Shown piece by piece: positions 3,061 through 60,227 of a stretch of DNA of 64,000 bases. The stretch's first letter is position 1. The number at the start of each line of letters is the position of its first letter. A program made the translations under genes and the position numbers. Source of the stretch: Bacillota bacterium (GTDB lineage Bacteria; Bacillota; SHA-98; UBA4971); assembly GCA_024653485.1 (NCBI GenBank), contig JANLFY010000006.1, positions 62,001-126,000 on the forward strand, written 5' to 3'. The notes below the pieces were generated by a model. That model saw only the letters and a program-made list of their open reading frames with translations, made no database searches and was not told the DNA's origin.

Positions 3061-3095
3061 CTCGCTCCCTCCTTTCTTCAAGCTTCTTACCAGGA

Positions 3096-3300: not shown

Positions 3301-3366
3301 TCCGGATGCCCGCGGCTGAACCCATCCGAAGACCTTCCCGTGACGGCACTTCGCCTTGCGGGCGGC

Positions 3367-42377: not shown

Positions 42378-42460
42378 GCGCGCTCCCGGTGCGGTCCGGC
42401 CCATGGCAAGACGCAGTCCACGGACGGAACCCACGGGGGGGCCCACGGGGGAGCCCACGC

Positions 42461-42491
42461 AGGCCTGGCGCTGCCAGGCCTGTTCTTTTCT
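42461..42491 (+). terminator. Terminator of leuS
   Basis: AGGCCTGGC, three bases, GCCAGGCCT, then GTTCTTTTCTT. The stem is perfect and lies 84 bases after the leuS stop. Confidence 0.9.
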
Positions 42492-42821: not shown

Positions 42822-43865
42822 ATGAGCTTCCGGGTATCCGTTGGGTCCTGCTGCTTTAGTTCAGTTTCCCGCGATGGGCTGTTCGTCCTGTGGAACGTCA
42901 CAGACCAGTGTAACCTTGCTTGCCCACACTGCCACGCCAGGGCGACACGGGAATCTCTGCATCCCGAAGACATGGGGCTGCGTAGAGCTGGTCTGAAGGT
43001 CGTGATGGACCGCCTGTCGGACGTGCGACCCCGCCTTGTAGCTATCTCGGGTGGTGAACCGCTTCTGTTCCCCGAGATCCTCTGGCTGCTCCGGGAATTG
43101 AGTGAACACGGCCTTGACACCGATGTATGTACCAACGGCACGGCGGCATCACCGGAGCTCGTCAGAACGATGGCAGCAACCGTTAGACGGGTGTCCGTAA
43201 GCCTGGACTCCTTTTCACGGGAGAAGTCCGCCATTCTCAAGAGATCGCCAGAAGCGTCCGAACGCGCTTTGGAGGCGATAGACGCCTTTGTCGCAGCCGG
43301 TATGCAAGTTAGTGTCTCGGTGGTGCCTACGGGGATAACCTACGAGGAGATCGTTGCGACGGCACAGGGTTTGGCAAGGAGGGGCGTTGCGTCCATCTCG
43401 ATTCTACCTCTCATGGCGACCCGAGACACCAGCTATCGCCTCACTCCGATCGCGTGGAAGCACCTTCACGACAGCCTTCCGAGGCTCATCGACGTTTGTC
43501 GACGGTATGACGTCGAGCTCAAGCTGAAGGGTTTCCCCTTGGACGAAGAGACGATGACGCGCTGCGGGGCCGGCGAACACGTCGTGGCGATAAGCTCCAC
43601 GGGTCACTTGTGGCCGTGCGCCTTCTTCGGAGAGGACTGCGATGAAACGGATCTGATGAAGGTCACGATCCCTGAGGCATTGGCCTCGTCGAGTTTCGAG
43701 CGGTTCAGACGCGACATATCGCGGACCGCCTGCGTTGATTGTGAGCATGCATCGTTCTGCGGAAAGGGTTGTGTTGGGGTATCGTGGGTGGAGCAAGGAG
43801 TCATCGCCCCGGACCCACGATGCGTAAGAAAGACTCTCCGTTCAACGGATATCGGGCCAAAGTAA
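42822..43865 (+). CDS. Radical SAM enzyme with SPASM-like C-terminus
   Basis: About 347 residues. NVTDQCNLACPHCHA contains the CX3CX2C motif for the SAM-binding 4Fe-4S cluster, and AISGGEPLLFPEI and VCTNGT follow as usual. The C-terminus has GHLWPC and CVDCEHASFCGKGC...C, the spacing of SPASM auxiliary-cluster domains, as in PqqE and peptide-modifying maturases. The enzyme probably modifies a peptide or small molecule by radical chemistry. ATG 42822 is the likely start (the frame is open from 42699), though no good Shine-Dalgarno is visible. First gene of the plus-strand operon. Confidence 0.88.
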   Translation: MSFRVSVGSCCFSSVSRDGLFVLWNVTDQCNLACPHCHARATRESLHPEDMGLRRAGLKVVMDRLSDVRPRLVAISGGEPLLFPEILWLLRELSEHGLDTDVCTNGTAASPELVRTMAATVRRVSVSLDSFSREKSAILKRSPEASERALEAIDAFVAAGMQVSVSVVPTGITYEEIVATAQGLARRGVASISILPLMATRDTSYRLTPIAWKHLHDSLPRLIDVCRRYDVELKLKGFPLDEETMTRCGAGEHVVAISSTGHLWPCAFFGEDCDETDLMKVTIPEALASSSFERFRRDISRTACVDCEHASFCGKGCVGVSWVEQGVIAPDPRCVRKTLRSTDIGPK

Positions 43866-43950
43866 GCCCGCCAGTGGCCAAGATGAGTGATCACGCAGTT
43901 TGGTTGGGAGCCCGATCCTGACCCCGAGCTCAACAAAGAGGGCGAGACCA

Positions 43951-45369
43951 ATGACGGAGTCGAGCAAACCCATCAGTCTCTGTCAAATGCTCCAGCAGGG
44001 CGGGAGATTTCTCGTAACGACCCATCTGGGTCAAGCCGAATACGTGACGCCACGAGAATGGCAGGCCCTCACAATGATGGAGGGCTTCCACACGTGTGAG
44101 GAGATAGCCGCGTCCGCCGGCCTGCCGGTGAACAGCCTTCTCGAGCTCTGCGCGCGACTCGAGGCCGGTGGTTACGTGACGGACTTGGATCGCTGGAACA
44201 GGCTGAGCTGGTGTCCCGAGTGCCGAGTGTACGTGCTCTCACAGCAAGGGGTTTGCAGGTGCGGAAGACCGACAGACAAGGTAGAGCTCATGCCGCCGTG
44301 TGATACATGGATCCTCTTCCCAGAAGAACACAGAATGGTTCGGGAGCTGGCGCGTGATCGTCTGGGCCTCGAAATCAGGGAAGATGCGTTCCTTCTCGGC
44401 AACTGGGGGGTCAAAGGCACCATCCCCTTCTGGGAGATCGTCTTCGAAGGTCGAGTCATGCTAAGGATCTGCTTCGAAGGGCTTGACCGCCGCACCTGGC
44501 GGGTCGCGCCCGGAGAAAGCCTTCCGCACGCGAACGCGAGCGGACGTGCGGTAAGCGAGCGCACCGGCGCCGTCCGGTCAGGCACCGGGCATGCAACCGA
44601 AATGAACGAGTACATCGATCTCCTGGTGGAGCACAACAGGCAACACCTTGACTCGCTCGCACGGCGCTCGCACGCGATCATGGAGACCACCTTCGGCTTG
44701 TTCCCGTCGCTTCCCATGATCTACTTCAGTGGTGGCAAGGAAAGCATGGTGATGGCGCACCTCATGAGCCAGCTCGGAATCGAGTGCAACCTGCTCTTCG
44801 TGGCCACCGGCATGGACCAGCCCGACGACGTCGGCTTCTTTCATGACGTGGTCGCGCCGTGGTCGCGTCAATACAACCGTTTCCACCTGCACGTTTTCAC
44901 ACAGGACAGCTCGCGGTTCCTTGCCCTGGCCCGCGAGAACGGGGTTCTGAGCTCCAAGAACCCCTGGTGTCGCACGAAGATCAAGATGCCGCTGAAACAC
45001 AAAGCCACTTCGGAGATTTACGGGAGCCAGTACTTCACGGCCTATGAAGGAAGCCGAAAGTACGAGACGAACTACCGACGACGCTACGCCACTGTGAATT
45101 TCCCCAGGAACTATCCGAATCAGGTTTGGGTCCACCCAATTGCGGATTGGACAGGGCTCGAGGTGTGGCTCTATCTGATCAGCAACAGGCTTCCTGTCAG
45201 CCCCGTTTACTTGAAGGGTTTCCAAAAGACCACGTGCTGGTGCTGTCCGCTCGTTCAACCATATCACTTGGAGAGATCGAGGGCACTGTACCCGGAACTC
45301 TGGGCATCTCTAAACGACGTGGCCCTGGCCGGGTTCGATGACAGAGATAGCGTGGAAATCCCGTACTAG
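43951..45369 (+). CDS. PP-loop ATPase, PAPS-reductase-like, with RRE/PqqD-like N-terminus
   Basis: 472 residues in three parts. Residues 1-75 (ISLCQMLQQGGRF, YVTPREWQALTMMEGFHTCEEIAASAG, LLELCARLEAGGYV) look like the PqqD-type winged helix that serves as peptide recognition element in RiPP systems. A small zinc-ribbon (CPECRVYVLSQQGVCRCG) follows. The rest is a PP-loop domain with YFSGGKESMVM (ATP-binding SGGKxS), CRTKIKMPLKH and a C-terminal TTCWCCPLVQPYH. PP-loop enzymes adenylate a carbonyl for thiolation or amidation, or reduce sulfonucleotides. ATG 43951 has AGAGGGCGAG upstream. Confidence 0.75.
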   Translation: MTESSKPISLCQMLQQGGRFLVTTHLGQAEYVTPREWQALTMMEGFHTCEEIAASAGLPVNSLLELCARLEAGGYVTDLDRWNRLSWCPECRVYVLSQQGVCRCGRPTDKVELMPPCDTWILFPEEHRMVRELARDRLGLEIREDAFLLGNWGVKGTIPFWEIVFEGRVMLRICFEGLDRRTWRVAPGESLPHANASGRAVSERTGAVRSGTGHATEMNEYIDLLVEHNRQHLDSLARRSHAIMETTFGLFPSLPMIYFSGGKESMVMAHLMSQLGIECNLLFVATGMDQPDDVGFFHDVVAPWSRQYNRFHLHVFTQDSSRFLALARENGVLSSKNPWCRTKIKMPLKHKATSEIYGSQYFTAYEGSRKYETNYRRRYATVNFPRNYPNQVWVHPIADWTGLEVWLYLISNRLPVSPVYLKGFQKTTCWCCPLVQPYHLERSRALYPELWASLNDVALAGFDDRDSVEIPY

Positions 45370-45484
45370 CCCCTCGGGTGCGTTAGGATGCCTCGTAGCG
45401 CGCGTCGCACGCAAGGTATCGCAAGGTGTAGTGAGGAGCACGGGATGAAGGTCGCGCCAGTCAGGGGTGGAGGTGGAAACCCCG

Positions 45485-47545
45485 GTGGTACTTACGCCCC
45501 AAGACCTCTCGGAAATGACTCGAGAGGAGCGAATAGCCCTCGTCGGTCGGAAGGCGAGTAACCTAGTCGAGCTAGGGCTTCTCAAAGTGGAAGTGCCTCC
45601 CTGGATCGCTGTCACGACACGCTTCCAGGAAGCTTGCTGGCGTCATCCCGCGAATCGAAGCCACAGGGACAGAGTGGATGCCCATCTAATCAACGCGGTG
45701 GGACTGGTGCAGGCCCTGCCTTCGTTGCGCGAAAGCGTAACGCGATTGGTTTTCCCTCATGAGCTGCGGACGCTCCTCAGACAGAAGCTGGCACTTACGA
45801 ACCTGGGCGAGCGCCTCGCGGTGAGGTCGTCCGGGATTCGCGAAGACTGTCGAGCCCATTCCGGTGCCGGCATGTTCGCCAGCGTCCTCGATGTTTCAGC
45901 CGATGCTGTGGAAGAGGCGATTAAGACGTGTTGGGCGTCTCTGTTCTCCGAAGCGTATCTCCTGCTCTTCGGAAATCAGACTCTCAGCACCGACAAGATT
46001 AGCATGGGCGTCATCATCCAGCGGATGGTCAAGGCGGAAAGGAGCGGAATACTCTTCACCATCAACCCAACTACGGGAGACCGCTCCGAGGTCGTGGTCG
46101 AAGCATGCCGCGGAGGATGCGCGCCGCTAGCGGCAGGCATGGGATCAGCGGAACGCCTGGTCGTACACAAGCTGAACGTGAAAGCGACCGCGTCAGAAGG
46201 TGCCACGCCGCGAGAGACGCAAGGAAGCCCGTCTGGAGGAAGGGGCACGCCGGTTCTCAGCCAAAGCGAGCTGGAGCAGCTAGCAGAGCGGGCGCTGCGC
46301 GCAGAAGAGCACTTCTGCTGGCCGCAAGACATCGAGTGGGCGATAGAAGGCGGCCGCGTGTTCTTCCTTCAAGCACGCCCTGTCACCACTCTGGAACCAC
46401 ATCGCCGCGATAGCCAGTACGAACCAATGGTGTTCGAGCTGCACGAAGCGGAGGAAGTTCCTCCGGAAGCATTGGGCGCTCACAGGCGCAGACTTGGTCG
46501 GTGGAAGGTCAAGAAGATCCCTTTCTACAAGGCGTGCCGCAGGGCCGGCATAAAAGCGTGCCGGTGGATCTTCCTGCGCGTCTCCACCCATACCTTTGAC
46601 GCGGTCGACTGGAATGCTCTTCTCGGCATGCTCGAGGCGCCCAGCGTGTACGTGGGCATTAACGAGACGGTGATGGACCTCCAGGTCCCCACGTCGCAAC
46701 TCAAGCGGAAGCTGCTCGAGGTCGCCAGCGTGTATCAAGAGGACGCCGTGACTGTCTATCTTAGGGAGAGCTTTCCGACTGAGGTCGCCATTCTATCCCA
46801 GGTGACCCCGGATGGCGCCGTCTATCTCGAGGCGGCCCCCGGCTTTCTCTCAGGAATCAACGCAGGCATCGTCACTCCCGAATCTTGTCTCATAAGTCCC
46901 GACAACCTTTGCGCGGGCAGGTCTCCTGATAGACCTGCGAACCAGCAGTGGAAAGGCGCGTCCTGCCGATTCATCGGGCCGCCTGACCTCGAGACGATAG
47001 CCGAAGGCACTCTCGCTCTGCAGCGAGAACTCGGGGACATCGTGGTCGAGTGGTGGAAGTGGAACGACAAGCTGTACGCGAACGACGTCTCTCTTGTATG
47101 GTCCAAGCTTCCTTGCGCTCCCGACGGGGCGAGCGGAGCGCTCGAGACTTCATTCATCCCGATTTCCCCCGGTTCATTCGAGGGCCCGCTTGTCAGGTTG
47201 GAGGACTTCGATGAGTACCTCACGGCATACATGAGTCACGGCCGCGGCATCAGCGTTATGGGCCGCAATCCAGACATAGACAACCTAGACTTCGTCGCAT
47301 CTCTACGCGCTCGATTGAGAGGAGCCGCGTCAGGGCCTATAAAGCCCGTTGTCTGGGCGGAGAAGCCGCTTCTCTTCCTGGCGCCGTTGGTGTCGGAGGT
47401 CTCCGGGTTCGTGTTCCGCAATGCAAGCCTGCTATGTCACCTAAGCATAATCCTACGAGAGCAGCGTGTGCCGGCCGTCAGCACGGGAGGGCGAGACCTC
47501 TCCCTCAAGAACGGCGAGTGGTTCAGGTACAGCGGTGAATCGTAG
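45485..47545 (+). CDS. PEP synthase/PPDK-like phosphotransferase with altered His loop
   Basis: About 686 residues. N-terminal ATP-grasp PPDK_N domain: GRKASNLVEL, LAVRSSGIREDCRAHSGAGMF, VIIQRMVKAERSGILFTINPTTG and WAIEGGRVFFLQARPVT. After a long middle region the C-terminal mobile domain keeps the phosphohistidine (CHLSIILREQRVPAV), but the canonical TxGGxxSH is changed to NASLLCH. It probably transfers phosphate from ATP through a His to an unknown acceptor, as rifampin phosphotransferase does. The GTG start at 45485 is preferred because GGAGGTG precedes it by about nine bases; GTG 45467 and ATG 45512 are alternatives. Confidence 0.75.
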   Translation: MVLTPQDLSEMTREERIALVGRKASNLVELGLLKVEVPPWIAVTTRFQEACWRHPANRSHRDRVDAHLINAVGLVQALPSLRESVTRLVFPHELRTLLRQKLALTNLGERLAVRSSGIREDCRAHSGAGMFASVLDVSADAVEEAIKTCWASLFSEAYLLLFGNQTLSTDKISMGVIIQRMVKAERSGILFTINPTTGDRSEVVVEACRGGCAPLAAGMGSAERLVVHKLNVKATASEGATPRETQGSPSGGRGTPVLSQSELEQLAERALRAEEHFCWPQDIEWAIEGGRVFFLQARPVTTLEPHRRDSQYEPMVFELHEAEEVPPEALGAHRRRLGRWKVKKIPFYKACRRAGIKACRWIFLRVSTHTFDAVDWNALLGMLEAPSVYVGINETVMDLQVPTSQLKRKLLEVASVYQEDAVTVYLRESFPTEVAILSQVTPDGAVYLEAAPGFLSGINAGIVTPESCLISPDNLCAGRSPDRPANQQWKGASCRFIGPPDLETIAEGTLALQRELGDIVVEWWKWNDKLYANDVSLVWSKLPCAPDGASGALETSFIPISPGSFEGPLVRLEDFDEYLTAYMSHGRGISVMGRNPDIDNLDFVASLRARLRGAASGPIKPVVWAEKPLLFLAPLVSEVSGFVFRNASLLCHLSIILREQRVPAVSTGGRDLSLKNGEWFRYSGES

Positions 47546-47574
47546 GCATCAACATGATCGAGGACGGATGCTCG

Positions 47575-49188
47575 ATGGACATTCTGCTCGTGAACGCGAT
47601 CTTCGGAAAGAAGCGTCTATCGGAGCCGATGGGCTTGTGCTACCTAGCAGCTGTGTTGCGCGCGAACGGCTACCGGAACGTCACCATCCTGGAGCCGCGC
47701 ATACTGGACATGTCCGTTGATGACGTGGTCCAAAGAGTCCTCTCGGTCGACCCGGACGTGTTGGGGATCTCCACGTTCTCATTCCAAAAGGGCCATGTCT
47801 TCGACCTCGTGCGCCGGTCCAGGCAAAGAGGGTTCCGGGGAGTGATCGTGCTGGGCGGCCTCGGCGCGACACTCTGCCACGAAGTGTACCTGAGGGAATG
47901 TCCGGAAATAGACTCTATCGTTTGTGGGGAAGGGGAACTCACGTTCCTAGACATGGTCCGGGCTCTCTCATCAGGCAGCCAGGATTGGAAGACGCTCAAA
48001 GGCGTGGCGTGGCGCGACGAAGCGGGGCAGGTTCACTACAACAGAGGCAGAGAGCGTATCAGAAACCTCGACGAGCTTCCATTCATGGCTCGGGACGTTC
48101 TCGAACAGAACATCTCGCTCCTGGGCAGGGAAAGGGTCACGGCGTGTGTAATGGGGGGGCGCGGCTGCTATAACAACTGCTCTTTCTGTTGGATATCAAA
48201 CGCTCTCGACATGCAGGAGGGACTGCGCTACCGCCAGAGGTCTGTGAGGAACATCGTGGACGAGATCCAAATGATTGTGGAGACGTACGGTGTCACCGAT
48301 TTCTCTTTCGAAGACGATAACTTCATACTGCCGGGGGCTGCAGGGATAGAGCGAGCCCGCGAGTTCCGCGACGAGGTCAAGAAGCGCGGCCTAAAGATCA
48401 CCTTCTTCTTCCAAACGCGGCCCGATACCGTCACGCGTGAAGCCATCTCTCTGTTCAAGGAAGCGGGCCTTGCCAAGTTGTTCATCGGCATCGAAGCGAT
48501 TACCGAAGAGGACCTGGCGCTTTACAAGAAGTGTTGCACCCCTCAGCAGCTCGAAGAGTGTCTCGCCATTCTGAGGGACCTTGACTACCTGCCAGACGTG
48601 GAGCGCGAGCACAGAGGGCGTGTGCGCTTCGGGTACATAGCATTTCACCCGCTTACGACCGTCAAGAGCCTCAGGCAGTCCCTGGAGTTCTTCCAGAGAC
48701 ATCGACTGACGCCCAAACGCCTGCTGACAAAGATCAACCTGTACGATGGAGACATGGACATCGCGAGGGCGTTCGCGGAGAAGGGCGCCGCCGTGGAGGG
48801 CGGCACGTACCAGTTCAAGGATCCGATGGTTGGGAAGATCTATGAGTGCTTCTCAGAGTATTGCGGTAAGGTGTTTGAATATCGAGAGGCAATCAGAAGC
48901 ATCGAGAAACACCTCGCACGGTTGGGTGCGAGTAGGTCGGACTACGAAGATCTTTGTGCCGACCGCCGCAGGCTCGATGACATGGCGCTCGGTTTCCTTG
49001 GCGGACTTCTCTCGATAGCGGAAGAGTCCGGCGACATGGAAGAAAGACGTGCCCGGCTCGATCGGCTCCTCGCAGAGGAACTCGAGCGTTTCGACTGCTA
49101 TGCCAGGGAAACCAACCTGAGCGGCAGGATACAGGAATGCGCCGCCAAGCACGGTGCCACTTCGGGAATGCACGACATGTACTGGTGA
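47575..49188 (+). CDS. B12-binding-type radical SAM enzyme
   Basis: About 537 residues. Residues 1-130 are a B12-binding-like Rossmann domain (DILLVNAIFG, PMGLCYLAAVLRANGY, GISTFSFQKGHVF, VLGGLGATLCHE) that lacks the canonical DxHxxG. MGGRGCYNNCSFCW is the CX3CX2C cluster motif, FSFEDDNFILP and LFIGIEA follow. The last 110 residues are helical. Members make C-methylations or rearrangements or modify tRNA and natural products. ATG 47575 is chosen as the domain starts there; ATG 47554 is an alternative. Thirty bases after the previous stop. Confidence 0.85.
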   Translation: MDILLVNAIFGKKRLSEPMGLCYLAAVLRANGYRNVTILEPRILDMSVDDVVQRVLSVDPDVLGISTFSFQKGHVFDLVRRSRQRGFRGVIVLGGLGATLCHEVYLRECPEIDSIVCGEGELTFLDMVRALSSGSQDWKTLKGVAWRDEAGQVHYNRGRERIRNLDELPFMARDVLEQNISLLGRERVTACVMGGRGCYNNCSFCWISNALDMQEGLRYRQRSVRNIVDEIQMIVETYGVTDFSFEDDNFILPGAAGIERAREFRDEVKKRGLKITFFFQTRPDTVTREAISLFKEAGLAKLFIGIEAITEEDLALYKKCCTPQQLEECLAILRDLDYLPDVEREHRGRVRFGYIAFHPLTTVKSLRQSLEFFQRHRLTPKRLLTKINLYDGDMDIARAFAEKGAAVEGGTYQFKDPMVGKIYECFSEYCGKVFEYREAIRSIEKHLARLGASRSDYEDLCADRRRLDDMALGFLGGLLSIAEESGDMEERRARLDRLLAEELERFDCYARETNLSGRIQECAAKHGATSGMHDMYW

Positions 49189-49257
49189 CGACTCCAGGGG
49201 ATCGCTCCGTTGCGCTCTGGTCACAGAGATTCACGTGGCGACTGGGTGGGAGCAAAA

Positions 49258-50127
49258 GTGGGCAACAGCAGGGGAATGATAGCCATCGTGACAGAAGAGG
49301 TGGCCGACTTCGTGCACCGGCCGGCCGATTACGACCTGACCCTGGTGCGCAGGCTGTACAAGCTCGATAACGACGTGGAAGTAGTCGGGTTCGTGGGAAA
49401 CCGACGGGGGAAGGAGTTTGTGTACTTTCCCGCGCTTGGCATGAACGACCGCCTGGACGCTGTCTCGGCGCCCGTCGCTCTCTTTGGCATCTTTGAAACC
49501 GAGCCTCCGGCGGCTCTCGTTCTCGTGGCGAAGGTCGGAGGGATCAACCCGTTGCTCTGCGTCGGCGATATCGTGATCCCGCAGGACTTCGCCGATTTCA
49601 CGAGCCGCCGTCACCGCAGCTACCTGCAACACGTCAACCCGCGAGTCTCCGTCCATTACAGTCTGAGGCGCCCCATATGTCGCAAGCTGGCAGCGAACCT
49701 CTTCGCCGAGATCAGCTCATCCGCAAGGGAGGAATTCCGGTGCAACACGTTTCTCGCCGGGACGTACGTCTGCACGGAAGGCCCCGGGTTTGAGACGAGG
49801 AGCGAGATCGTCGCCTTTTCCCGGATGGGCTTCGACTGCGTGGGACACACCCTCGCCCCCATGGTGTATTACGCTCGGGAGCTCGGCCTGTGCTTTGCCG
49901 CCGTCTGTCTAGTATCCAACGCCGCGGAAGGACTGGCGTCTGGCTCGGAAGCAGGTGGTAGCGCTTGGCATCTGTCGCGGGCTGAGCTGTCCAGCCGCAT
50001 CGTCCGTCTTGTCTTGCTCGCGGCTGACGCGGCTCTCCCCACGGGCTGCGACGACTGCTCCAGCGACGAGCTGTGGTTCAGGCGCCCGACGGAGAGAAGC
50101 CGCCTCTTTGACTGCGGAGCTCGGTAG
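49258..50127 (+). CDS. Nucleoside phosphorylase, MTAP/PNP-like
   Basis: About 289 residues. CTEGPGFETRSEI is the purine-nucleoside and sulfate/ribose-binding signature of 5'-methylthioadenosine phosphorylases, and GDIVIPQDFADFTSRR is another MTAP/PNP landmark. The start of the fold (usually IGxxGGSGLY with the phosphate-binding Ser) is replaced by VTEEVADFVHRPADYD, and NPLLCVGD stands for the canonical NPxxxxGD. Likely substrate is MTA or 5'-deoxyadenosine, the latter a by-product of radical SAM chemistry. GTG 49258 is preferred (GGGAG upstream). Confidence 0.75.
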   Translation: MGNSRGMIAIVTEEVADFVHRPADYDLTLVRRLYKLDNDVEVVGFVGNRRGKEFVYFPALGMNDRLDAVSAPVALFGIFETEPPAALVLVAKVGGINPLLCVGDIVIPQDFADFTSRRHRSYLQHVNPRVSVHYSLRRPICRKLAANLFAEISSSAREEFRCNTFLAGTYVCTEGPGFETRSEIVAFSRMGFDCVGHTLAPMVYYARELGLCFAAVCLVSNAAEGLASGSEAGGSAWHLSRAELSSRIVRLVLLAADAALPTGCDDCSSDELWFRRPTERSRLFDCGAR

Positions 50128-50178
50128 AGCCTTCGGCTATCCCGCCATCCGCGACCGCAAACATGGAGTGGTGACAGG

Positions 50179-51486: not shown

Positions 51487-51487
51487 T

Positions 51488-52327
51488 GTGATGCTTGACA
51501 ACCGTCCGGACATCGGAAACGCGAACCGCGCCTACTATGACGCCGTCAGCTGCTGCTACGATGCCAAACACGGCATCTCCTCCGTTGACATGGGTTGGTT
51601 CATCGAAGATGTCAAGAGGCTGCTTGGAGAGATGCCTGCGGGCGTCAAGGTCCTTGATTGCGGAGCCGGCACCGGACGCTGCGCCATCAAGTTTGCAAAG
51701 GCTGGCAACGAGGTCCTTGCCATCGATGTTAGTGGCAGGATCCTGGATAGGTGTCGAATGAACGCTTCCCTTGAAGGCGTTCGCGTATCTACGCTCGAGG
51801 CCGACTGCTGCAGGATCCCTTTGCCTTCCGGGACCTTCGATATAGTGGCGTTCTGCGCGGCGCTCCACCACATACAAGACGTCAAACAGGCGCTTGCGGA
51901 GGCCGGCCGCCTCCTCAAGCCGGGGGGACGCTTGCTACTGATGGCTGAACCCAAGGCATCCGTGATCCGTCCGGCTTGGATGAGAAGAATCAAGGATAGA
52001 CTATCCGACGCGTACGATCGCTCCGTTTGCGGGCAAGTCGAGCTGGAAGCCAACCCTGACGTGCATATCTTCATGGTGCGGGAACTTCGGAGTCTTCTGA
52101 AAGCCTTGGGGTTTGGAAGCATAAGGGTATGGGAGTTCTTCTGTTTGACATCGATATACCGGGACCTCGTCTACTACAGAATACGCGACAATCGGGTGCG
52201 ATCCAAACTGTACTGGTGGCTATACTGGATTGACAGGCGTGCCCTTGGGTTCCTGCCCAGCGCGTGCAAGGCTCTGTTCCATCTCGCCGCTGTGAAAGAA
52301 GGTGCGAGCGAATGCGGGGGCGTCTAG
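51488..52327 (+). CDS. Class I SAM-dependent methyltransferase
   Basis: 279 residues. VKVLDCGAGTGRCAIKFA is motif I, VLAIDVSGRIL and FDIVAFCAALHHIQD follow, then LLKPGGRLLLMAEP, a Methyltransf_11-type layout. The C-terminus is basic and aromatic (WWLYWIDRRALG) and may bind a hydrophobic substrate. GTG 51488 is chosen because GGAGG is nine bases upstream; ATG 51479 lies too close to it. One base separates it from the stop of the deaminase gene. Confidence 0.85.
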   Translation: MMLDNRPDIGNANRAYYDAVSCCYDAKHGISSVDMGWFIEDVKRLLGEMPAGVKVLDCGAGTGRCAIKFAKAGNEVLAIDVSGRILDRCRMNASLEGVRVSTLEADCCRIPLPSGTFDIVAFCAALHHIQDVKQALAEAGRLLKPGGRLLLMAEPKASVIRPAWMRRIKDRLSDAYDRSVCGQVELEANPDVHIFMVRELRSLLKALGFGSIRVWEFFCLTSIYRDLVYYRIRDNRVRSKLYWWLYWIDRRALGFLPSACKALFHLAAVKEGASECGGV

Positions 52328-52992
52328 TCGCGGTCTGTGGTATGATAGGGACCGGCAAGAGCACCCTCATTTCAGGGCTTTCGAGGTTGGACCCTTCGGT
52401 CGTCACCGTCGCCCAGCCGCCGGAGAGATGGAAGGAAGACCCGAGGGTCCTCGACATGCTGCGAGAGAACCCGTCCGGGAGATTCTGCGGGCCCGGCGAG
52501 ATAGCGTTCGCTGTCCAACTGAGGCTCAAGCAGCAAGAGGAGGAGATCGTCCCTGCCCTCTTGCAGGGCAGGGACGTCATTTGCCACCGGTACTTCTACT
52601 GCCTCGCGGCGTATTACATGTGCTTCGCTCCGGCCTTTCTGCGACTTGCTTACGAAGAGGCATCCGGAATCATCGAACCAGACCTGACCATAGTCCTCGA
52701 TGCCGAACCTTCTCACGTCCTTGCTCGGCATCTCGCCCGGCGCAAGGAGGTCTTCCCGTATCAGCTGGACCTTCAGACGACGGTTCGCACGAGACAAGCC
52801 TATTTGTCCCTGGCAAGGGAGCACGGGTTCATGACAATCGACTCAACGAAGGAACCTCCAGAGGAGGTGCTGCGCAAAGCCCGTCAATCGATAGAGCGGC
52901 TTCCTGAAAAGGAGACGCTCACGGGGCGTTTCAAGCACGTCTCTCTGCCCCAGGGTCTTGCGCAACCTACGCAAGACCTCGGGCTCAAATAG
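52312..52992 (+). CDS. P-loop deoxynucleoside/thymidylate kinase-like protein
   Basis: 226 residues. VAVCGMIGTGKSTLISGL is a Walker A motif; DVICHRYFYCLAAYYMCFAPA fits the DR[YF]-type motif of thymidylate and deoxynucleoside kinases and EPDLTIVLDAEPSHVLARHLARRKE the lid region. It would phosphorylate a nucleoside or similar hydroxyl. ATG 52312 is 16 bases inside the preceding methyltransferase gene, with AAGGTG upstream, so the two are coupled. Last gene of the plus-strand operon; it ends 29 bases from the converging one. Confidence 0.78.
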   Translation: MRGRLVAVCGMIGTGKSTLISGLSRLDPSVVTVAQPPERWKEDPRVLDMLRENPSGRFCGPGEIAFAVQLRLKQQEEEIVPALLQGRDVICHRYFYCLAAYYMCFAPAFLRLAYEEASGIIEPDLTIVLDAEPSHVLARHLARRKEVFPYQLDLQTTVRTRQAYLSLAREHGFMTIDSTKEPPEEVLRKARQSIERLPEKETLTGRFKHVSLPQGLAQPTQDLGLK

Positions 52993-53021
52993 GGACCGAA
53001 TGGCAAATGGAAGCGCGGCCC

Positions 53022-54326
53022 CTATATGAGTCTCTCCAGGGCCGTCAGCGCCTGTTCCTCGTCGGGCTCCGATCCGAACACCGCCACCGACGCGTTGACG
53101 GGAACCAGCAGCTCTTCCATGGTTCTCCTCATGTCCTCGATATCCAGCGAAGAGAGCTCCCTGGCGGTCTCCGCGGGGCTTCTGCCCGTCCCGAAGAGAG
53201 TTTCGAAGCGAGCGACATGGCTCACGGCAAAGTAGATCTCATCCGACTCCATCGCGAACCAGCCGAGATAGCGTCTCCTTGCGCGCTCGAGCGCATCCCG
53301 AGGAAGGCTCTTGACTCTCTTCAGCGCCGTGGCCAATAGTTGCATGGCTCTCGAGGCGTCCCGCGTCGCGACCGTGATGGTGAGAAGGCCCGCCTGCGAG
53401 AGCGGCTCGTAGTCAGCGGCGATTGAGTAAGCAACCCCGGTCTCCTCACGGAGTGCCTGGTAGAGGTGAGACGATATGCCGTCTCCGAGCAACGATGCGA
53501 TGACGGGATACCAGACGCTCGAGCCAGAGACGGGCGCAGGGGTGACGAACGCCAGACGTAGGTAGCCCGGAGTTCTGTCCTCCTCCCGGGCAATATACCG
53601 CGGCCCCTCAAAGCACGACGGCCCGCAAGACTCAGACGCTTGCTCATGCGCAGCAACCGGCCTCGTCGCATGTCCCAAGCTCGTCCCGGCGTCCAGTCCT
53701 CGAGCCACGCCGCAACGCTCGCGCAAGCACTCCTGTACTTCGTCATGTCGAACGTCTCCGCCAACGACCAAGACCATCCTGTCTAGCTGGTAGTGCGTGG
53801 CGTGGTACTCTACAACGTCCGCGTGCGAGACGGCGCGCACCGCCTCCACGCTCCCATAGGGCGGCTGAGCGTATGAAGTGCCCGGCCAGACGCTCTGATA
53901 AACAAGGCCGTCCACGACGGCTTCGGGATCATCCTGGAGTTCCGAGATCTCCTCGATGATCACCTCCTTCTCCTTTTCCACATCCTCGGGTAGCAGGAGG
54001 GGCTCCCTCACGAAGTCCCACAACACGTCGATGGCGCTTGGTAGATGACCCACGGGCACGTTGACCCAGTACGAGACGAACTCGCGCGCGGTCACCGCGT
54101 CCATTTGGCCGCCGAGCCCTTCGATGTCCCGACCAAGCTCCTTACCTGCCGGTCTGCGTCGAGTGCCCCGAAACAGCATGTGCTCGGTGAAGTGTGCCAG
54201 GCCGTTCTTGCCGGGAGCCTCGTAACGACTGCCCGCTCTTGCTCGCAGATTCACGGCAATGGCAGTTCGCCCCGGGCACTCCAGGGTGATCACGCGAAGA
54301 CCGCTCGGCAGGACTGCTTTGTTCAT
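53022..54326 (-). CDS. M16 zinc peptidase
   Basis: 434 residues. HFTEHMLFRGT is the inverted zinc motif HxxEH with the third ligand Glu in EKEVIIEEISELQDDPE. The C-terminal half is the inactive M16_C domain. Members such as PqqF/PqqL and the mitochondrial processing peptidase cut peptides; in RiPP clusters they remove leader peptides. ATG 54326 overlaps the GNAT stop in ATGA. Last gene of the minus-strand operon. Confidence 0.9.
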   Translation of the reverse strand: MNKAVLPSGLRVITLECPGRTAIAVNLRARAGSRYEAPGKNGLAHFTEHMLFRGTRRRPAGKELGRDIEGLGGQMDAVTAREFVSYWVNVPVGHLPSAIDVLWDFVREPLLLPEDVEKEKEVIIEEISELQDDPEAVVDGLVYQSVWPGTSYAQPPYGSVEAVRAVSHADVVEYHATHYQLDRMVLVVGGDVRHDEVQECLRERCGVARGLDAGTSLGHATRPVAAHEQASESCGPSCFEGPRYIAREEDRTPGYLRLAFVTPAPVSGSSVWYPVIASLLGDGISSHLYQALREETGVAYSIAADYEPLSQAGLLTITVATRDASRAMQLLATALKRVKSLPRDALERARRRYLGWFAMESDEIYFAVSHVARFETLFGTGRSPAETARELSSLDIEDMRRTMEELLVPVNASVAVFGSEPDEEQALTALERLI

Positions 54327-54874
54327 ACGCCCGAGTCCTCCAATCGCCTGAAGTCAGAGAACAACATGCTGAAGAGAAAGGCATCCCAGTATCGCCCGTA
54401 CCGGAAGACATACTCCCGGAGGGTGCCGTCAAGTCGAAACCCCATCCTTTCGTTTATCCTGATCATGGTCTTGTTGAACTCAAATACGATGCTCTGAAGA
54501 CGGTTGAGGTTCATTTCCTCAAAGCAGAACCTGATGAGCGTGCGCCTGGCATCGGAACCCAATCCACGTCCTCGGTTCTCTTTATCGCCGATCACCGTGC
54601 CCGCCAGGTTTGCCCTCCGGTTCTTCCAGTCTATCTCGTCCAACTCCAGGAAGCCAACCTTCTTCCCTGTCGAGAGGTCTTCGATCATCAACAGCAGCGT
54701 ATCCTCGCGTGACAGCTTCTCGTCGAAATGCTTGCGCACAGCTTCCTCATTCGTGGGATAAGCCACGGAAGTGAGCGCGGGTTCCACTACGTCCGGCTGG
54801 TTTAGCCACCCGGCAAGCAATGCGTAGTCGGATTCGACGAGCGGGACCAAACGCGACTTATCGCCGACGAGCAT
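54323..54874 (-). CDS. GNAT-family N-acetyltransferase
   Basis: 183 residues. RLVPLVESDYALLAGWL, GFLELDEIDWKNRRANLAGTVIGDKENRGRGLGSDARR (acetyl-CoA loop) and NKTMIRINERMGFRLDG form the RimJ/RimL-type pattern. It would acetylate an amine, possibly of the cluster's product. ATG 54874 is supported by AGGAGGAG eight bases upstream. Confidence 0.88.
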   Translation of the reverse strand: MLVGDKSRLVPLVESDYALLAGWLNQPDVVEPALTSVAYPTNEEAVRKHFDEKLSREDTLLLMIEDLSTGKKVGFLELDEIDWKNRRANLAGTVIGDKENRGRGLGSDARRTLIRFCFEEMNLNRLQSIVFEFNKTMIRINERMGFRLDGTLREYVFRYGRYWDAFLFSMLFSDFRRLEDSGV

Positions 54875-54939
54875 GCCAGGTCTCCTCCTGAAATGCACTA
54901 AAGTTCTCGATGCTACACTATCCCGCTTCACGTACCGGG

Positions 54940-55731
54940 TCACGAGAACTCCACGCCGTGGCGTCGCGCCCGGGAGAGTTGCAGCGAGAAGAGAGCGACC
55001 CCGGCCAACACGTACGCGGCGGCCACGCCCGCCTCTGCCAACAGGTGCGGCAGGACATCTACATAAGAGGCCCCGGCCGCAATTGCCCGAAAGGCAAGTA
55101 GGCCGTTGGTAAGAGGCAGGCACCTGCCGACGGCGGCCAAGGGCTTGGGTAGGGCCTCCAAGGGCACGTTCACGCCTGCCAGAACCATCAGAAGGCTGCT
55201 TGCGGCGTTTGCAAGGACAACCTCCACTCTCGTCGTAAACGATACACACGCGACAGCCAGCGCAAGGCCCGCTACCGACAAGGAGATCAACGGCAGCACG
55301 GGCAAGGCGCGCAACGCGCCGATCAACACAGATACCGGAACGCCAGACAGTGGTCCGATGAGGAAGAGCACAGTGAGGGTCGTCACGATGCCCTCGACGA
55401 ACGATGCGCCCTCCCGTCCCAGGATCGACAGGACCTTGTTCGCGGGCGTGACCATCATGAGCGTCAGGTTGCCGCTCGTACGCTCAATATAGACCATGTT
55501 TGAGATGGGGACCATGATCGCGACGGCGACCGCCTGTACGGCGTTGCCGACAAGTGCGAATTGCCCGAGAGCCGGCCCGCCCGCGTACGTTGCCGCCAAC
55601 ATGAAGAAAGCCACTCTCATAAGCAACTGCGGGATCTCCGTGCTGAGATAGAAGCCTAGAGGCGTGTCCACGAGGAACATCTTGAACGAGATTCTCACGC
55701 TGGCAACGAAAGGCCGCAAAGACCTCACCAT
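54940..55731 (-). CDS. ABC-2 type permease
   Basis: 263 residues with about six transmembrane segments: IPQLLMRVAFFMLAA, AVAVAIMVPISNMVYIERTSGNL (the loop between helices 2 and 3), and later helices. Together with its upstream neighbour it should form the membrane channel of the exporter. It overlaps that gene by seven bases. Confidence 0.85.
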   Translation of the reverse strand: MVRSLRPFVASVRISFKMFLVDTPLGFYLSTEIPQLLMRVAFFMLAATYAGGPALGQFALVGNAVQAVAVAIMVPISNMVYIERTSGNLTLMMVTPANKVLSILGREGASFVEGIVTTLTVLFLIGPLSGVPVSVLIGALRALPVLPLISLSVAGLALAVACVSFTTRVEVVLANAASSLLMVLAGVNVPLEALPKPLAAVGRCLPLTNGLLAFRAIAAGASYVDVLPHLLAEAGVAAAYVLAGVALFSLQLSRARRHGVEFS

Positions 55732-56513
55732 TCGGCTAACCGTCCTTCGGATCGGATTCTATCGAGGACCACTCTGTATGAGTAGTACGCCAGGCATACA
55801 TATGCCCAGGTCAGAACCACAAGGCTTGCGACGATCGTTGCGCGGCTCGTGCCTCCAGCAAGCCCAAAGGCGGCCCTCAAGCCCACGAGCCCCCATGTGG
55901 GAGCCAGGATGTAGCTGATTGCCCTCAGGCCGACGGGAAGACGAGAAACCGGGAACATCACACCCGAGATGATATAGGCCGGCCAGTTCATCAAGCCCAC
56001 CACACGCAACGCCTGTCGAAACCACACGAAGGCGCAACCGGCCACGAGACCCAAGGCTGTGACGGCCACCACCGTCATTACGAGACTGGCAAGGAGGAGC
56101 GTCCAGTCAACAACGGGCATGGCCCGCGGAGCGACACTTGCGGCAAGGAGAAGGGCGGTCAAGACCGAGCAAGCGGAGATCGTGGAATTGGCCAGGCTTC
56201 TCCCGAGAAGGATCCACATCGCGTCGGTAGGGCTAGCCACTAAGAACAGGAGTGTGCCGTCGCGCCGTTCGCGCTCGACGATCATGCCCGAGCTGAAGAG
56301 GTTCGCGTTCCAGATGCCGATTATGCCCGCGCCGATGACGGAGCCGGGGACCAGATCTTCGCGGCCCGCATGCCTGAACAGGAGGACGCTGAGCGCCATG
56401 AAGAACACGGGTTGTCCAACCATGATGTAGAAGTAGTGCGGACGTAGGACGAATTCCTGCACTTGACAACGGTACGCCGTCCTCATCACCCTAACGAGGC
56501 TTCGCACACTCAT
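55725..56513 (-). CDS. ABC-2 type permease
   Basis: 262 residues, six predicted transmembrane helices (for example FMALSVLLFRHAG, VTALGLVAGCAFVWF and YIISGVMFPVSRLPVGLRAISYILAPTW). The MIVERERRDGTLLFLVASP motif is shared with DrrB-like permeases. The ATG overlaps the ATPase stop by four bases. Confidence 0.85.
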   Translation of the reverse strand: MSVRSLVRVMRTAYRCQVQEFVLRPHYFYIMVGQPVFFMALSVLLFRHAGREDLVPGSVIGAGIIGIWNANLFSSGMIVERERRDGTLLFLVASPTDAMWILLGRSLANSTISACSVLTALLLAASVAPRAMPVVDWTLLLASLVMTVVAVTALGLVAGCAFVWFRQALRVVGLMNWPAYIISGVMFPVSRLPVGLRAISYILAPTWGLVGLRAAFGLAGGTSRATIVASLVVLTWAYVCLAYYSYRVVLDRIRSEGRLAEW

Positions 56514-57499
56514 GTCTTCAGCGCATCTCCTCCCACGATTTTCACGTACGCATCTTCGAGACTTGGCTCCTTCACCCTGAAGACCAAGACCTCCGCTCCG
56601 GAGATCGCTCTCAATATGCTGTCGATCCTGTTCCTGATGTTGACCCCGTGAATGACCAGAGTATGTATGTCGCCGTTGGGGTCGCCGCTTTGTTCCACGA
56701 CGATCTCAACGCCCGGCTCTCGCCTCAATCTCTCCAGGTGGTCCTGGGTAACCTGCCTGGCCTGGACTTCCGCCGTACATCCTCCCAGAACGACTTCCTT
56801 CAACTCCTCGGGCGAGGCGACCTTCAGGACCGTGCCCCGATGCAGGATGGCGATGCGCTGGCAGAGCTCTTCCGCCTCGTACATGTAGTGGGTGGTCAGC
56901 AGGATCGTCTTCCCCCTGGAGCGGAGCTCCTTGAGGAGACTCCTCACGGCGCGGGCAGCCACGGGATCAAGACCGATGGTGGGCTCGTCCATGATGATGA
57001 ACTCCGGATCCGCGATCAGGCTGCGGGCGATGTGTAGCCGCTGCTTCATTCCACGAGAGTATGTCTCCACGAGATCGTGGGCCCGTTCTTCGAGTCCGAC
57101 CATTTCCAAGAGCTCCTGTGCACGTCTTCTCGCAACCGACGGGGGCACGTGGTAGAGATCGGAGAAGTAGAGCAGGTTATCCCAGGCGCTGAGCCTCCAG
57201 TACAGCCCCCTCTCGCCGCCGAGAACGAGGCCTATTCGCGGCCTGATCCTCTTATACTCGGTCGCGACGTTATGACCGAGCACAAAGGCCGTGCCCGCGC
57301 TGGGCAATAGGAGCGTGGAGAGCACTTTCGTGAAGGTGGTCTTCCCAGCCCCGTTCGGTCCGAGCAGGCCGAACAACTCCCCCTTCTCTACCGTCAGGTT
57401 GACGTTCTTCAGCGCCTGGACCTCCGCCGGTTGCCCAGATGCGATCCGCCCCGTGCGGCGATAGGTACGGCAGAGATCGCGAGTCACTACGACAGACAC
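56510..57499 (-). CDS. ABC transporter ATPase
   Basis: 329 residues. GLLGPNGAGKTT (Walker A), YSRGMKQRLHIARSL (signature) and FIIMDEPTIGLDP (Walker B) are all intact, as in DrrA/ABC-2 exporter ATPases. A C-terminal domain of 90 residues (about 220-329) follows. It powers the two permeases to export the cluster's product or protect the cell. The GTG start has AGTGGTGG upstream. Confidence 0.92.
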   Translation of the reverse strand: MSVVVTRDLCRTYRRTGRIASGQPAEVQALKNVNLTVEKGELFGLLGPNGAGKTTFTKVLSTLLLPSAGTAFVLGHNVATEYKRIRPRIGLVLGGERGLYWRLSAWDNLLYFSDLYHVPPSVARRRAQELLEMVGLEERAHDLVETYSRGMKQRLHIARSLIADPEFIIMDEPTIGLDPVAARAVRSLLKELRSRGKTILLTTHYMYEAEELCQRIAILHRGTVLKVASPEELKEVVLGGCTAEVQARQVTQDHLERLRREPGVEIVVEQSGDPNGDIHTLVIHGVNIRNRIDSILRAISGAEVLVFRVKEPSLEDAYVKIVGGDALKT

Positions 57500-57543
57500 T
57501 TTCCACCACTTCCCTTTGCCTCATGGAAGCGCTCAGTAATGCC

Positions 57544-59169
57544 CTAAGGGTCCGGGGAAAGCCTGTGGAGCACGGTGCTCTCCTGGTTCCCTACTTCTTC
57601 TTGCTGTTCTTCTTGGTCTTTGCGACTTTGAGGCAGGCTCTTATTGCCATCGGCCTCACCCCCTTCGTAGAGGCCTACGGTGCGGCTTTCCCCGGTACCC
57701 TGAAGGATGTCGCGAACGACCGAAAGAGCGTCGGCTACCTCCTCCATGAACGTGTCTGTCACTATCAAGCTGGGTCCGGCGAGGTAAACGTTCTCCACGG
57801 AAACGAGCATCTCGACACGACCTCTCGAGATACCCACAAACCCCTCTTCGAACATCGGGTGAACGCGAAACCCGTATGCCGGAGCATTCCTGCACAGCCT
57901 CTTGAGCGGCTCAAGCGTGTCGAGGGCGTCAAGATCGCGCCCGTCCTCGCGGGTGCTAGGTGAAGCCATTGTCGCAAGAAAGACCAGAGTGCCCGCGGAC
58001 AACGGTGCGACGTACGAACGCCTTCGTTCCAGATTGAACCAGAATCTCAGCCAAAAGTCTGATGCCGTTTTGTACTGCAGCTCCTTCTTGGCAAAGAACC
58101 ATACGTCCGCAAGGACTTCATCCAGAGCGCGACGGACCCCTCCTCGCGGCGCCAGGTACTGCCAGACCCAAAATGGCCCGACGCCGATCTCGCGCGCGAT
58201 GTGCCTTGGCTTCCTGTATTGGTGTAACAGAACTCTCCTCGCAAGCCATGAAGTCGTTCCACGGGGAAACGCTCGAGGAAGCGAGAGCCCATACAGCCTT
58301 GATACCTTTCGCGCTAAGAAGTCGTAGAGCACGGTCATCCGAAGGAGCCGGACGTGACGCATGATGTAGTCCCAGTCCAGGCCGTCCTCGTAGGTCCTGA
58401 CGATGAGGCAGACATCGTTCACGTCCTTCTGTATCACATATCCGTGCTGGTGGGCATGGGCCAATGTTACCAGCAAGGCGTTCTCGGGCGAGGGAACGTA
58501 GAAGCCGCTATCGATTCGGCGAGCGTGGTCCCAAAACCAGCTTGGTTCGAGGTAACCGTGGCGAATCCCCACGGGCATGGATGGCCAGTGTATGTCCAGG
58601 CACACCCGATGGCGACCCTGGACTTGTTTCTCAAGAGTGATCGAGCCCGCGACCACATGGCCGTCGCCATCGATGGAGCGTCTCAACTGAATCCAGGGAG
58701 CCACGCGCCCCGGAACGTACCCCGCCCTAGAGAGGCGCCGGACCATTTCCCATGCAGTCTTCGTGTTCGGGGCGACCACATCGATGTCGTTTTGCGCCCG
58801 CAAACAGGTGTCGGGAACCAAGTACCAAAGACTAGTTCCCTTCACCAACATCACCCTGAGTCCCGCGAGGAGCGGGGATATGGCCTCGAGCTCCGCCCGA
58901 AGCTCTCTTGCCCGCCGGCCTGCCTCGAGCCCATCTCCGCATTCCCGCTCGAGAGCGCTCGCAAGGTCGCTCATGCGCGGGTCCCCGAGGCCGTTGATAT
59001 TGCCGTAGGCGATGGGAGCAACCTTGTTGGCATCAAGCCAAGACACGGCAAACTTCGACCTACCTAGGATCGACTCAGTGTGCGCGCGAACCCACGCTCG
59101 GGCCTGCGTCGCGGCGGGTGAATCAAGGTCAACTCGGGCGAGGGTTTCGAGGATGTCGACCAGTGACAT
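57544..59169 (-). CDS. Nucleotidyltransferase family (PF14907-like) with C-terminal domain
   Basis: 541 residues. MLVKGTSLWYLVPD, NDIDVVAPNTKTAWEMVRRLSRAGY (the DxD metal site) and DIHWPSM with later ENALLVTLAHAHQHGY match the uncharacterised NTP_transf_5 family, which is often found in lasso-peptide and other RiPP clusters of Bacillota. Its C-terminal 130 residues (MASPSTRE, ENVYLAGPSLIVTDTFMEEVADAL) resemble a small PqqD- or YcaO-unrelated regulatory fold, and the last 30 residues are charged. ATG 59169 has GAGGGGG upstream; GTG 59187 overlaps the previous stop. Confidence 0.72.
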   Translation of the reverse strand: MSLVDILETLARVDLDSPAATQARAWVRAHTESILGRSKFAVSWLDANKVAPIAYGNINGLGDPRMSDLASALERECGDGLEAGRRARELRAELEAISPLLAGLRVMLVKGTSLWYLVPDTCLRAQNDIDVVAPNTKTAWEMVRRLSRAGYVPGRVAPWIQLRRSIDGDGHVVAGSITLEKQVQGRHRVCLDIHWPSMPVGIRHGYLEPSWFWDHARRIDSGFYVPSPENALLVTLAHAHQHGYVIQKDVNDVCLIVRTYEDGLDWDYIMRHVRLLRMTVLYDFLARKVSRLYGLSLPRAFPRGTTSWLARRVLLHQYRKPRHIAREIGVGPFWVWQYLAPRGGVRRALDEVLADVWFFAKKELQYKTASDFWLRFWFNLERRRSYVAPLSAGTLVFLATMASPSTREDGRDLDALDTLEPLKRLCRNAPAYGFRVHPMFEEGFVGISRGRVEMLVSVENVYLAGPSLIVTDTFMEEVADALSVVRDILQGTGESRTVGLYEGGEADGNKSLPQSRKDQEEQQEEVGNQESTVLHRLSPDP

Positions 59170-59183
59170 TGAGATGGGCCCCC

Positions 59184-60227
59184 TCACGTGCCCAGGATGA
59201 TGGTACAGAGATACCCGGCGTGCACAAAGTCGTCGGCCGGAGCGGTGCGGAATCTCAAGCCCGGATCGTCCCCGCGGATCAAGGCGCAGTATGGGTCGGG
59301 CTCGTCAATGCTGTGGTAGAAGCGTCTTGCCGCACACCCGGCCTTGCACAATGTCAAGGCGTCACACTCCCGGCACGCGCGTGGGATACGCGTGATGCCC
59401 GTCCTCACGAACGCCTCTGTCAGGCTGAACTGGGGATCTTCAAGCGCCTTAACGGTAATGCCAACGGAAGGCCAGTACACGCATGGCACAATCTGGCCGT
59501 CCGGTCTTATCCGAAGACTCTTGGTGCCACAGCGCCCGTCTTGATGCGGAGAGGGAATGCCCGTGACCGCGTTGACCACGCCTTCGCTGAGGGCGACCAC
59601 GGTCCCCTCCAGAAAGAGATTCCTTACTCCCAGCCAAAACTCGTCGTATGTCAGAGAGAACCTATCGGTCCGCACGGGTTTGTATACGTTTATCCGTAGA
59701 TTGACACCATAACGGTCAAGCAACGGGAAGAACCCGGGCAGTGCCTGGTAATTGGTGTTCATCATGCACGCGACGATGCTGGTTTTCACCCCAGCAGCCA
59801 GGCACCGCTCTACCGCCCTTATGGCAGCGTCAAACGCGCCTGGCCCTCGGAACTCGTCGTGCCCTCTCCGCGTGGGGAAGTCGATCGATATGTCAATGTC
59901 GTGGAAGTAGCGTAAGCGTCTCTCGTCTAGCGCGTTAACGGAGTACCCGTTTGAGGTAAGGCTCATCTTCATGGAGCTATCGTGAAGATAGTCCAGAATG
60001 CCACCGATGTTGGGATGAAGCCCGTTTTCGCCCGTGCCCAGGTTCAACGCAGCTATTGGCAGAGCCTCGACGATCTTTCGGACATCTTCCAGTGCGAGAC
60101 TGCTGGGTGTCTCGCCCCTTGAGTAACAGTGCTCGCACCCGAGGTTACACCTGCTGGTCAAGCCAATGCCCACAGACCACCCATCTGCCTTTGTGCCTGC
60201 ATGCGCACTGGTGCAATGGCCGCCCAT
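59184..60227 (-). CDS. Radical SAM/SPASM peptide maturase-like enzyme
   Basis: 347 residues. GLTSRCNLGCEHCYSRGETPSSL holds the CX3CX2C motif, NLGTGENGLHPNIGG replaces the usual GGE, and the C-terminal CGTKSLRIRPDGQIVPC, CRECDALTLCKAGCAARRF, ...C is a full SPASM arrangement with two auxiliary clusters. This is the layout of sactisynthase-like peptide maturases. ATG 60227 lies behind GAGGAG; the frame is open to 60302. First gene of the minus-strand operon. Confidence 0.88.
   Translation of the reverse strand: MGGHCTSAHAGTKADGWSVGIGLTSRCNLGCEHCYSRGETPSSLALEDVRKIVEALPIAALNLGTGENGLHPNIGGILDYLHDSSMKMSLTSNGYSVNALDERRLRYFHDIDISIDFPTRRGHDEFRGPGAFDAAIRAVERCLAAGVKTSIVACMMNTNYQALPGFFPLLDRYGVNLRINVYKPVRTDRFSLTYDEFWLGVRNLFLEGTVVALSEGVVNAVTGIPSPHQDGRCGTKSLRIRPDGQIVPCVYWPSVGITVKALEDPQFSLTEAFVRTGITRIPRACRECDALTLCKAGCAARRFYHSIDEPDPYCALIRGDDPGLRFRTAPADDFVHAGYLCTIILGT

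Follow-up and report, generated by a model that had tools for sequence, protein, structure and literature searches.

This study addresses the question of what is made by a pair of convergent operons in the genome of a Bacillota bacterium (assembly GCA_024653485.1), and whether the two belong together. The window, meaning the whole 64,000-nucleotide stretch that was analysed (contig JANLFY010000006.1, positions 62001-126000, or G000:C6:62001-126000 in our numbering, within a 3.0-Mb genome), has a GC content of 61% and carries operon A at 42822-52992 on the forward strand (genes A1 to A8) and operon B at 60227-53022 on the reverse strand (genes B1 to B7), 15 genes over about 18 kb. Each operon starts with a gene for a radical S-adenosylmethionine (SAM) enzyme with a SPASM domain, the likely ATG codons being at 42822 for A1 and 60227 for B1, and 29 bp separate the stop codon of A8 from that of B7. 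We conclude that operons A and B are one accessory island that has been inherited, moved and lost together. It may well be a biosynthetic unit whose product is a specialised metabolite that is exported and most likely derived from a peptide, a reading that we hold tentatively, at a little under an even chance.

The evidence for a single unit came from a class sample of 17 searchable genomes and from the six genomes of the genus. Only one congener in the class sample carried a full-length A2 (80% identity), namely Firmicutes bacterium UBA6811 (G012, contig DKEX01000128.1), and its locus contained both operons, again convergent and in the same order. Blastn of the window against the other four congeners found leuS followed directly by an AbrB/PIN gene pair and/or by BsuPI and subtilase genes, with no block corresponding to 42379-60910 to separate leuS from the AbrB/PIN pair (or the BsuPI gene). 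The block also occupies different positions in its two carriers, lying between leuS and the AbrB/PIN pair in the window, and between the AbrB/PIN pair and the BsuPI gene in UBA6811, next to a duplicated segment from the 3' part of that gene. Two positions within one leuS-BsuPI interval indicate that the block travels as a unit. An earlier reading made from the sequence alone (the sequence-only reading) had treated the two operons as one, which is borne out by the convergent pair in UBA6811 and by their joint absence from four congeners; its expectation that the genes would also co-occur elsewhere held for a single further genome, whose copy is degraded, and for no other in the sample.

The copy in UBA6811 (L014 5244-15431) lacks, relative to the window, 47606-50608 (A4, A5 and the start of A6), 51864-53248 (the end of A7, A8 and the end of B7), 56809-59691 (the start of B3, B2 and the end of B1) and 60137-60173 (36 bp, with cysteines of B1 and part of its CxxxCxxC region). 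The four junctions are clean and contain no N, and they represent either true decay or a fault in the assembly of a metagenome-derived genome. Identity between the two copies was 73% for A1 and 90% for B6. Among genes whole in both genomes, the ratios of nonsynonymous to synonymous substitution rates (dN/dS) were 0.155 for A1, 0.128 for A2, 0.217 for A3, 0.088 for both B4 and B5, and 0.077 for B6, similar to those of the flanking genes (0.13-0.20). Such low values for the retained genes (0.08-0.22) indicate purifying selection, the island having been selected for function. GC content at third codon positions was 0.73 for the block and 0.79 for six host genes.

Several of its proteins are also rare, as judged by samples of one phylum (299 or 398 genomes) and a restrictive pattern scan, counts that are not exhaustive. 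Full-length A2 was found in 2 of 299 genomes, the remaining matches covering the PP-loop domain only; residues 314-692 of A3 were found in the same two genomes (the window's and UBA6811) out of 398; and B2 occurred in one of the 299 genomes and in none of the plasmids. A scan of contigs for wider homologues returned UBA6811 only, using two patterns that were built from two close sequences and so would miss distant relatives, and no island homologues were found in the viral contigs searched. Apart from one gene pair described below, the plasmid search gave only generic matches to phosphoenolpyruvate (PEP) synthase, CysD/phosphoadenosine phosphosulfate (PAPS) reductase and methylthioadenosine phosphorylase (MTAP). 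No cluster with this gene set turned up in the literature searches and genome samples used, and a literature search that combined RiPP (ribosomally synthesised and post-translationally modified peptide) recognition elements (RREs), radical SAM enzymes and PAPS reductases returned none. The true thymidylate kinase gene, tmk, lies at G000:C6:170166, and additional phosphorylases of the purine nucleoside phosphorylase (PNP) family are encoded elsewhere in the genome, so that A5 and A8 are extra copies and not housekeeping genes. The cluster as a whole is a rare, accessory, selected unit.

The gene families named in the sequence-only reading were each confirmed by Pfam and NCBIfam, and its end coordinates proved exact. 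The catalytic motifs searched for are intact, apart from a B12 motif in A4: CxxxCxxC in A1, A4 and B1, SGGKES in A2, HYH in A6, Walker A in A8 and B3, HxxEH in B7, and the nucleotidyltransferase motif GTS...DID in B2. A1 (42822-43865; 347 residues; CNLACPHC; Radical_SAM 5.6e-21, SPASM 0.0013) and B1 (59184-60227; CNLGCEHC; Radical_SAM 2.7e-15, SPASM TIGR04085 2.5e-8) both carry CxxxCxxC and a C-terminal SPASM domain, that of A1 scoring just under the Pfam cut-off (19.4 against 21.5) and the TIGR04085 match of B1 lying above its cut-off. The best NCBIfam models for A1 were AhbD, NirJ2 and MftC, all far under cut-off. The third radical SAM enzyme, A4 (47554-49188; CYNNCSFC; B12-binding 1.4e-17, Radical_SAM 1.5e-13), has a B12-binding domain, and its best NCBIfam and PDB matches were BchE and OxsB, respectively. 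It is without the DxHxxG B12 motif, as are some class-B radical SAM enzymes. Relatives of A4 are many, at no more than 37% identity and in other gene contexts, and the neighbourhoods of its homologues held no convincing match to any of the other island genes.

Operon A also encodes A5 (49276-50127; PNP_UDP_1 1.1e-22) and A6 (50179-51486; Amidohydro_1 4.5e-33). A6 has an amidohydrolase fold with an HxH motif, and its best structural matches, 4dyk and 4gbd, covered its full length (E 7e-38); we take both to be the methylthioadenosine (MTA) deaminase PA3170 of Pseudomonas aeruginosa. Its top NCBIfam models were PRK09045 (1e-50) and then 5'-deoxyadenosine deaminase (2e-50). A5 was aligned to 3ozb ('LVVNPAAGKSAG' against 'LVSNAAEGLASG'), which is presumably the P. 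aeruginosa methylthioinosine phosphorylase, in an entry titled methylthioadenosine phosphorylase. An Asn at the base site is common to both, A5 reading LVSNAAEG and 3ozb LVVNPAAG, whereas MTAPs have VTD there, with an Asp at the base site. This Asn favours reading A5 as a phosphorylase of 6-oxopurines (methylthioinosine type) over the MTAP it had been called, and A6 and A5 would most simply act as a deaminase and then a 6-oxopurine phosphorylase. An A6-like gene (30%) followed immediately by an A5-like gene (40%) was also found on a plasmid of Neorhizobium galegae (CP090555.1 1400912-1403055; L121 10436-12579), where the gene for the amidohydrolase and that for the methylthioinosine phosphorylase-like protein, the latter annotated 'hypothetical protein', lie in an unrelated locus among ABC transporter genes, in keeping with a two-step module that is portable. 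Radical SAM enzymes release 5'-deoxyadenosine and are inhibited by it (PMC6079011), and a cluster with three of them provides an obvious use for such a pair. A5 and A6 thus probably clear nucleosides released by the radical SAM enzymes, with 5'-deoxyadenosine more likely than MTA as the substrate, and they are no proof of a nucleoside product; disposal of by-products is a simpler explanation for what had been taken as the nucleoside half of a peptide-nucleoside compound.

The remaining proteins of operon A include two uncommon enzymes. A2 (43951-45369, start approximate; PAPS_reduct 1.4e-22) comprises a winged-helix-like N-terminus, a zinc-ribbon-like Cys region and a PP-loop domain of the PAPS-reductase family, which suggests that A2 adenylates a carbonyl, possibly with transfer of sulfur as a second step. 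A3 (45467-47545; PPDK_N 8e-46) is a dikinase-type protein with an ATP-grasp domain (residues 24-313), a unique middle domain and a C-terminal His-swivel-like domain (His658). Its PDB matches were to the ATP-grasp of PEP synthase/Rph, it also matches the ligases RedH/PigC, and the PEP-utilizers match to its C-terminal part was under cut-off (16.9 against 23.1 bits). The copies in the two genomes both retain His658 and the ATP-grasp motifs; the AlphaFold2 model of A3 had a confidence (pLDDT) of 31. Rifampin phosphotransferase has the domain order ATP-grasp, substrate domain and His swivel (PMC4844700), and by analogy we infer that A3 may transfer a phosphoryl group to a substrate held by its middle domain, or drive its condensation by phosphorylation. 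A7 (51479-52327; Methyltransf_11 1.7e-23) is a class I SAM methyltransferase and A8 (52312-52992; Thymidylate_kin 7e-12) a P-loop kinase like thymidylate and deoxynucleoside kinases.

Operon B combines a maturase, a peptidase and an exporter on a single strand (B1, B7 and B3-B5). B7 (53022-54326; Peptidase_M16 8e-32) is an M16 zinc peptidase with the motif HFTEH, for which the best NCBIfam match was PqqF (7.5e-24, under cut-off). The exporter consists of a DrrA-type ATPase, B3 (56510-57499; TIGR01188 drrA 3e-82, 276 bits against a cut-off of 312), and two ABC-2 permeases, B4 (55725-56513; ABC2_membrane 8e-15) and B5 (54940-55731; ABC2_membrane_3 2.6e-9). B6 (54323-54877, start approximate; Acetyltransf_3 5.5e-16) is a GNAT acetyltransferase. 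B2 (57544-59169, start approximate; NTP_transf_5 2.2e-25) is a PF14907 protein with a nucleotidyltransferase fold and an extension of about 250 residues.

Taken together, these genes suggest a pathway in which A1, B1 and the B12-type enzyme A4 would modify a scaffold, A2 would activate a carbonyl or amide by PP-loop adenylation and may insert sulfur, and A3 would phosphorylate or condense the substrate via a phosphohistidine arm, in the manner of rifampin phosphotransferase and RedH/PigC. A7 would then methylate, B6 acetylate, and B2 add a nucleotidyl- or sugar-type group, while B7 would trim the peptide and B3-B5 export the product. A6 would deaminate, and A5 then phosphorolyse, the 5'-deoxyadenosine and MTA arising from the three radical SAM enzymes, averting inhibition of those enzymes.

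The features that point to a peptide are the two SPASM enzymes, the M16 peptidase, the exporter and the PF14907 protein. The biosynthesis of pyrroloquinoline quinone (PQQ) likewise involves both an M16 peptidase and a SPASM enzyme. PF14907 is not exclusive to RiPPs, and we assume that PsmN, from the pseudomycoidin cluster, belongs to it. PsmN, which is annotated as a nucleotidyltransferase, decorates the lasso peptide pseudomycoidin (PMC9266682).

A number of results weigh against the reading of the island as a source of an exported, peptide-derived compound. Small open reading frames (ORFs) in the intergenic regions were scanned and compared with the UBA6811 locus by tblastn, and no conserved precursor came to light in any gap or ahead of A1 or B1; the gene for one may be located at another site in the genome, or the pathway may start from a scaffold other than a peptide. 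The N-terminal 75 residues of A2 are winged-helix-like, with predicted strands preceding helices in the order seen in an RRE, but neither Pfam nor NCBIfam gave a PqqD match in A2, and hhalign of this region with about 26 PqqD domains gave probabilities of 4-5%, with a global alignment that was colinear at a single-comparison p of 0.003. The AlphaFold2 model of A2 (pLDDT 37), in which the N-terminus forms a b-b-a-a-a arrangement at a pLDDT of about 49-63, is too poor to decide the matter. Co-occurrence of the genes rests on two related genomes, of which the second, UBA6811, has a degraded copy, and the families of A3 and A4 occur in non-peptide pathways too. The 'RRE-like' N-terminus put forward in the sequence-only reading is accordingly not established, and its peptide product, given no conserved precursor, no demonstrable RRE and a PF14907 family that is wider than RiPPs, is not supported. 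A bolder possibility, which we consider rather unlikely, is that the island makes peptide natural products of a class not seen before, matured jointly by a PP-loop adenylating (possibly sulfur-inserting) enzyme that has a recognition-domain-like N-terminus, a dikinase-type ligase and three radical SAM enzymes, with a two-step module of its own for 5'-deoxyadenosine disposal that would keep by-product inhibition from halting the pathway.

Two congeners (G016 and G014; loci L055, L057 and L059) encode further radical SAM/SPASM proteins whose N-terminal domains are genuinely PqqD-like, which means that the genus has RRE-bearing maturases at other loci.

The best of the alternatives, although an unlikely one, is that operon A makes a modified nucleoside or nucleotide, with A4 acting on a nucleotide like OxsB, A8 serving as a nucleoside or nucleotide kinase and A5 and A6 working on intermediates, and that operon B exports or tailors the product. 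OxsB was the best PDB match of A4, A8 resembles thymidylate and deoxynucleoside kinases and is distinct from the housekeeping tmk, and a phosphorylase, a deaminase and a methyltransferase share one operon. However, the closest NCBIfam model of A4 is BchE, which is no nucleoside enzyme, by-product disposal accounts for A5 and A6, and the M16 peptidase, A2 and the SPASM domains are left unexplained.

It is less probable again that the two operons are unrelated and are only neighbours within an insertion hot spot. There is no proof that either operon depends on the other, and the hot spot gathers toxin-antitoxin-like genes as well, but the pair is convergent with a 29-bp gap in the window, has the same order in UBA6811 and is jointly absent from four congeners. 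A peptide-derived redox cofactor, similar to PQQ or mycofactocin and not secreted, for which the SPASM enzymes and the M16 peptidase would carve the cofactor from a peptide encoded elsewhere, is still harder to credit: A1 and B1 both had MftC-type models among their best matches, and PqqF was the best NCBIfam match of B7, but all of these fell under curated cut-offs, a dedicated ABC exporter and a GNAT enzyme better fit a secreted compound, and the distribution of the island is patchy and accessory. Least probable of all is that the island defends against phage by producing a nucleotide that terminates chains or is toxic in some other way, in the manner of viperin or PDC-M51, since, although the hot spot contains toxin-antitoxin-like genes and PADLOC matched A1 to pVip (1.7e-20), A4 to PDC-M51A and A8 to PDC-M51B, the PADLOC matches (pVip, PDC-M51A/B and BrxP) were rejected as generic after scoring control proteins, unrelated B12 radical SAM proteins reaching up to 64.7 bits on PDC-M51A against 47.6 for A4 and the housekeeping tmk 55.9 bits on PDC-M51B against 22.9 for A8, while A1 scored 62 bits on the NCBIfam viperin model against a cut-off of 180, behind AhbD, NirJ2 and MftC, and an exporter and a peptidase do not fit such a role.

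The surroundings of the island provided some further observations. The leuS-BsuPI interval (window 42378-61216) is an insertion hot spot in the genus, holding the AbrB/PIN toxin-antitoxin-like pair and the biosynthetic island, and in UBA6811 it has also gained a group of Xre-HTH, ImmA-IrrE-like and PIN-like genes (L014 about 2114-3801; translated ORFs read by eye). A gene for a BsuPI-type intracellular proteinase inhibitor domain, present in all six genomes of the genus, lies directly downstream of a subtilisin-like peptidase gene (61987-63917), and at 33243-36518 a clostripain-family (C11) peptidase gene adjoins one for a caspase-like (C14) peptidase, both with CarboxypepD_reg domains. A palindrome, TTGTAG-N9-CTACAA (TTGTAGAAATATATCCTACAA; 42674-42694), about 130 bp upstream of A1, was considered as a possible operator and set aside, as just half of it is conserved in UBA6811 and its occurrence is no more than chance would predict. 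An Rfam scan gave no match.

Radical SAM biosynthetic clusters are a known kind, and it is the combination of parts that is unusual here; the product class proposed in the sequence-only reading is plausible and unproven. If there is one product, the island would bring SPASM and B12 radical SAM enzymes together with chemistry of the PP-loop and dikinase types in a single pathway. A deaminase/phosphorylase pair inside a radical SAM cluster would offer a testable answer to how 5'-deoxyadenosine is removed locally, and the UBA6811 locus is a natural deletion series for comparison.

Among known systems, the island resembles the SPASM-type RiPP clusters (PQQ with pqqE/pqqF, mycofactocin with mftC, and the sactipeptides/ranthipeptides) in its SPASM enzymes, the M16 peptidase B7 and an ABC exporter, but differs in that no precursor gene and no proven RRE were found, in having two SPASM enzymes together with a B12 radical SAM enzyme, and in its additional PP-loop, dikinase-type, deaminase, phosphorylase and kinase genes. 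The pseudomycoidin lasso cluster likewise places a nucleotidyltransferase-annotated protein, PsmN, in a peptide-type cluster, while the island is without the lasso B and C enzymes and its PF14907 protein, B2, has an extra region of about 250 residues. A4 shares the B12-binding and radical SAM architecture of the class-B enzymes OxsB and BchE, but it is at most 37% identical to any sampled relative, occurs in another gene context and has a longer C-terminal region (544 residues in all, against about 440-500 in its nearest relatives). A3 appears to have the same order of domains as rifampin phosphotransferase and PigC/RedH, from an N-terminal ATP-grasp through a central substrate domain to a C-terminal His-swivel-like domain, but at 692 residues it is shorter than those enzymes (about 865-885), and its central domain (about 314-640) is without a recognisable relative. 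Finally, the A6 and A5 pair, with the base-site Asn in A5, resembles the P. aeruginosa route of PA3170 MTA deaminase and methylthioinosine phosphorylase, but here the two genes sit in a biosynthetic island alongside three radical SAM enzymes.

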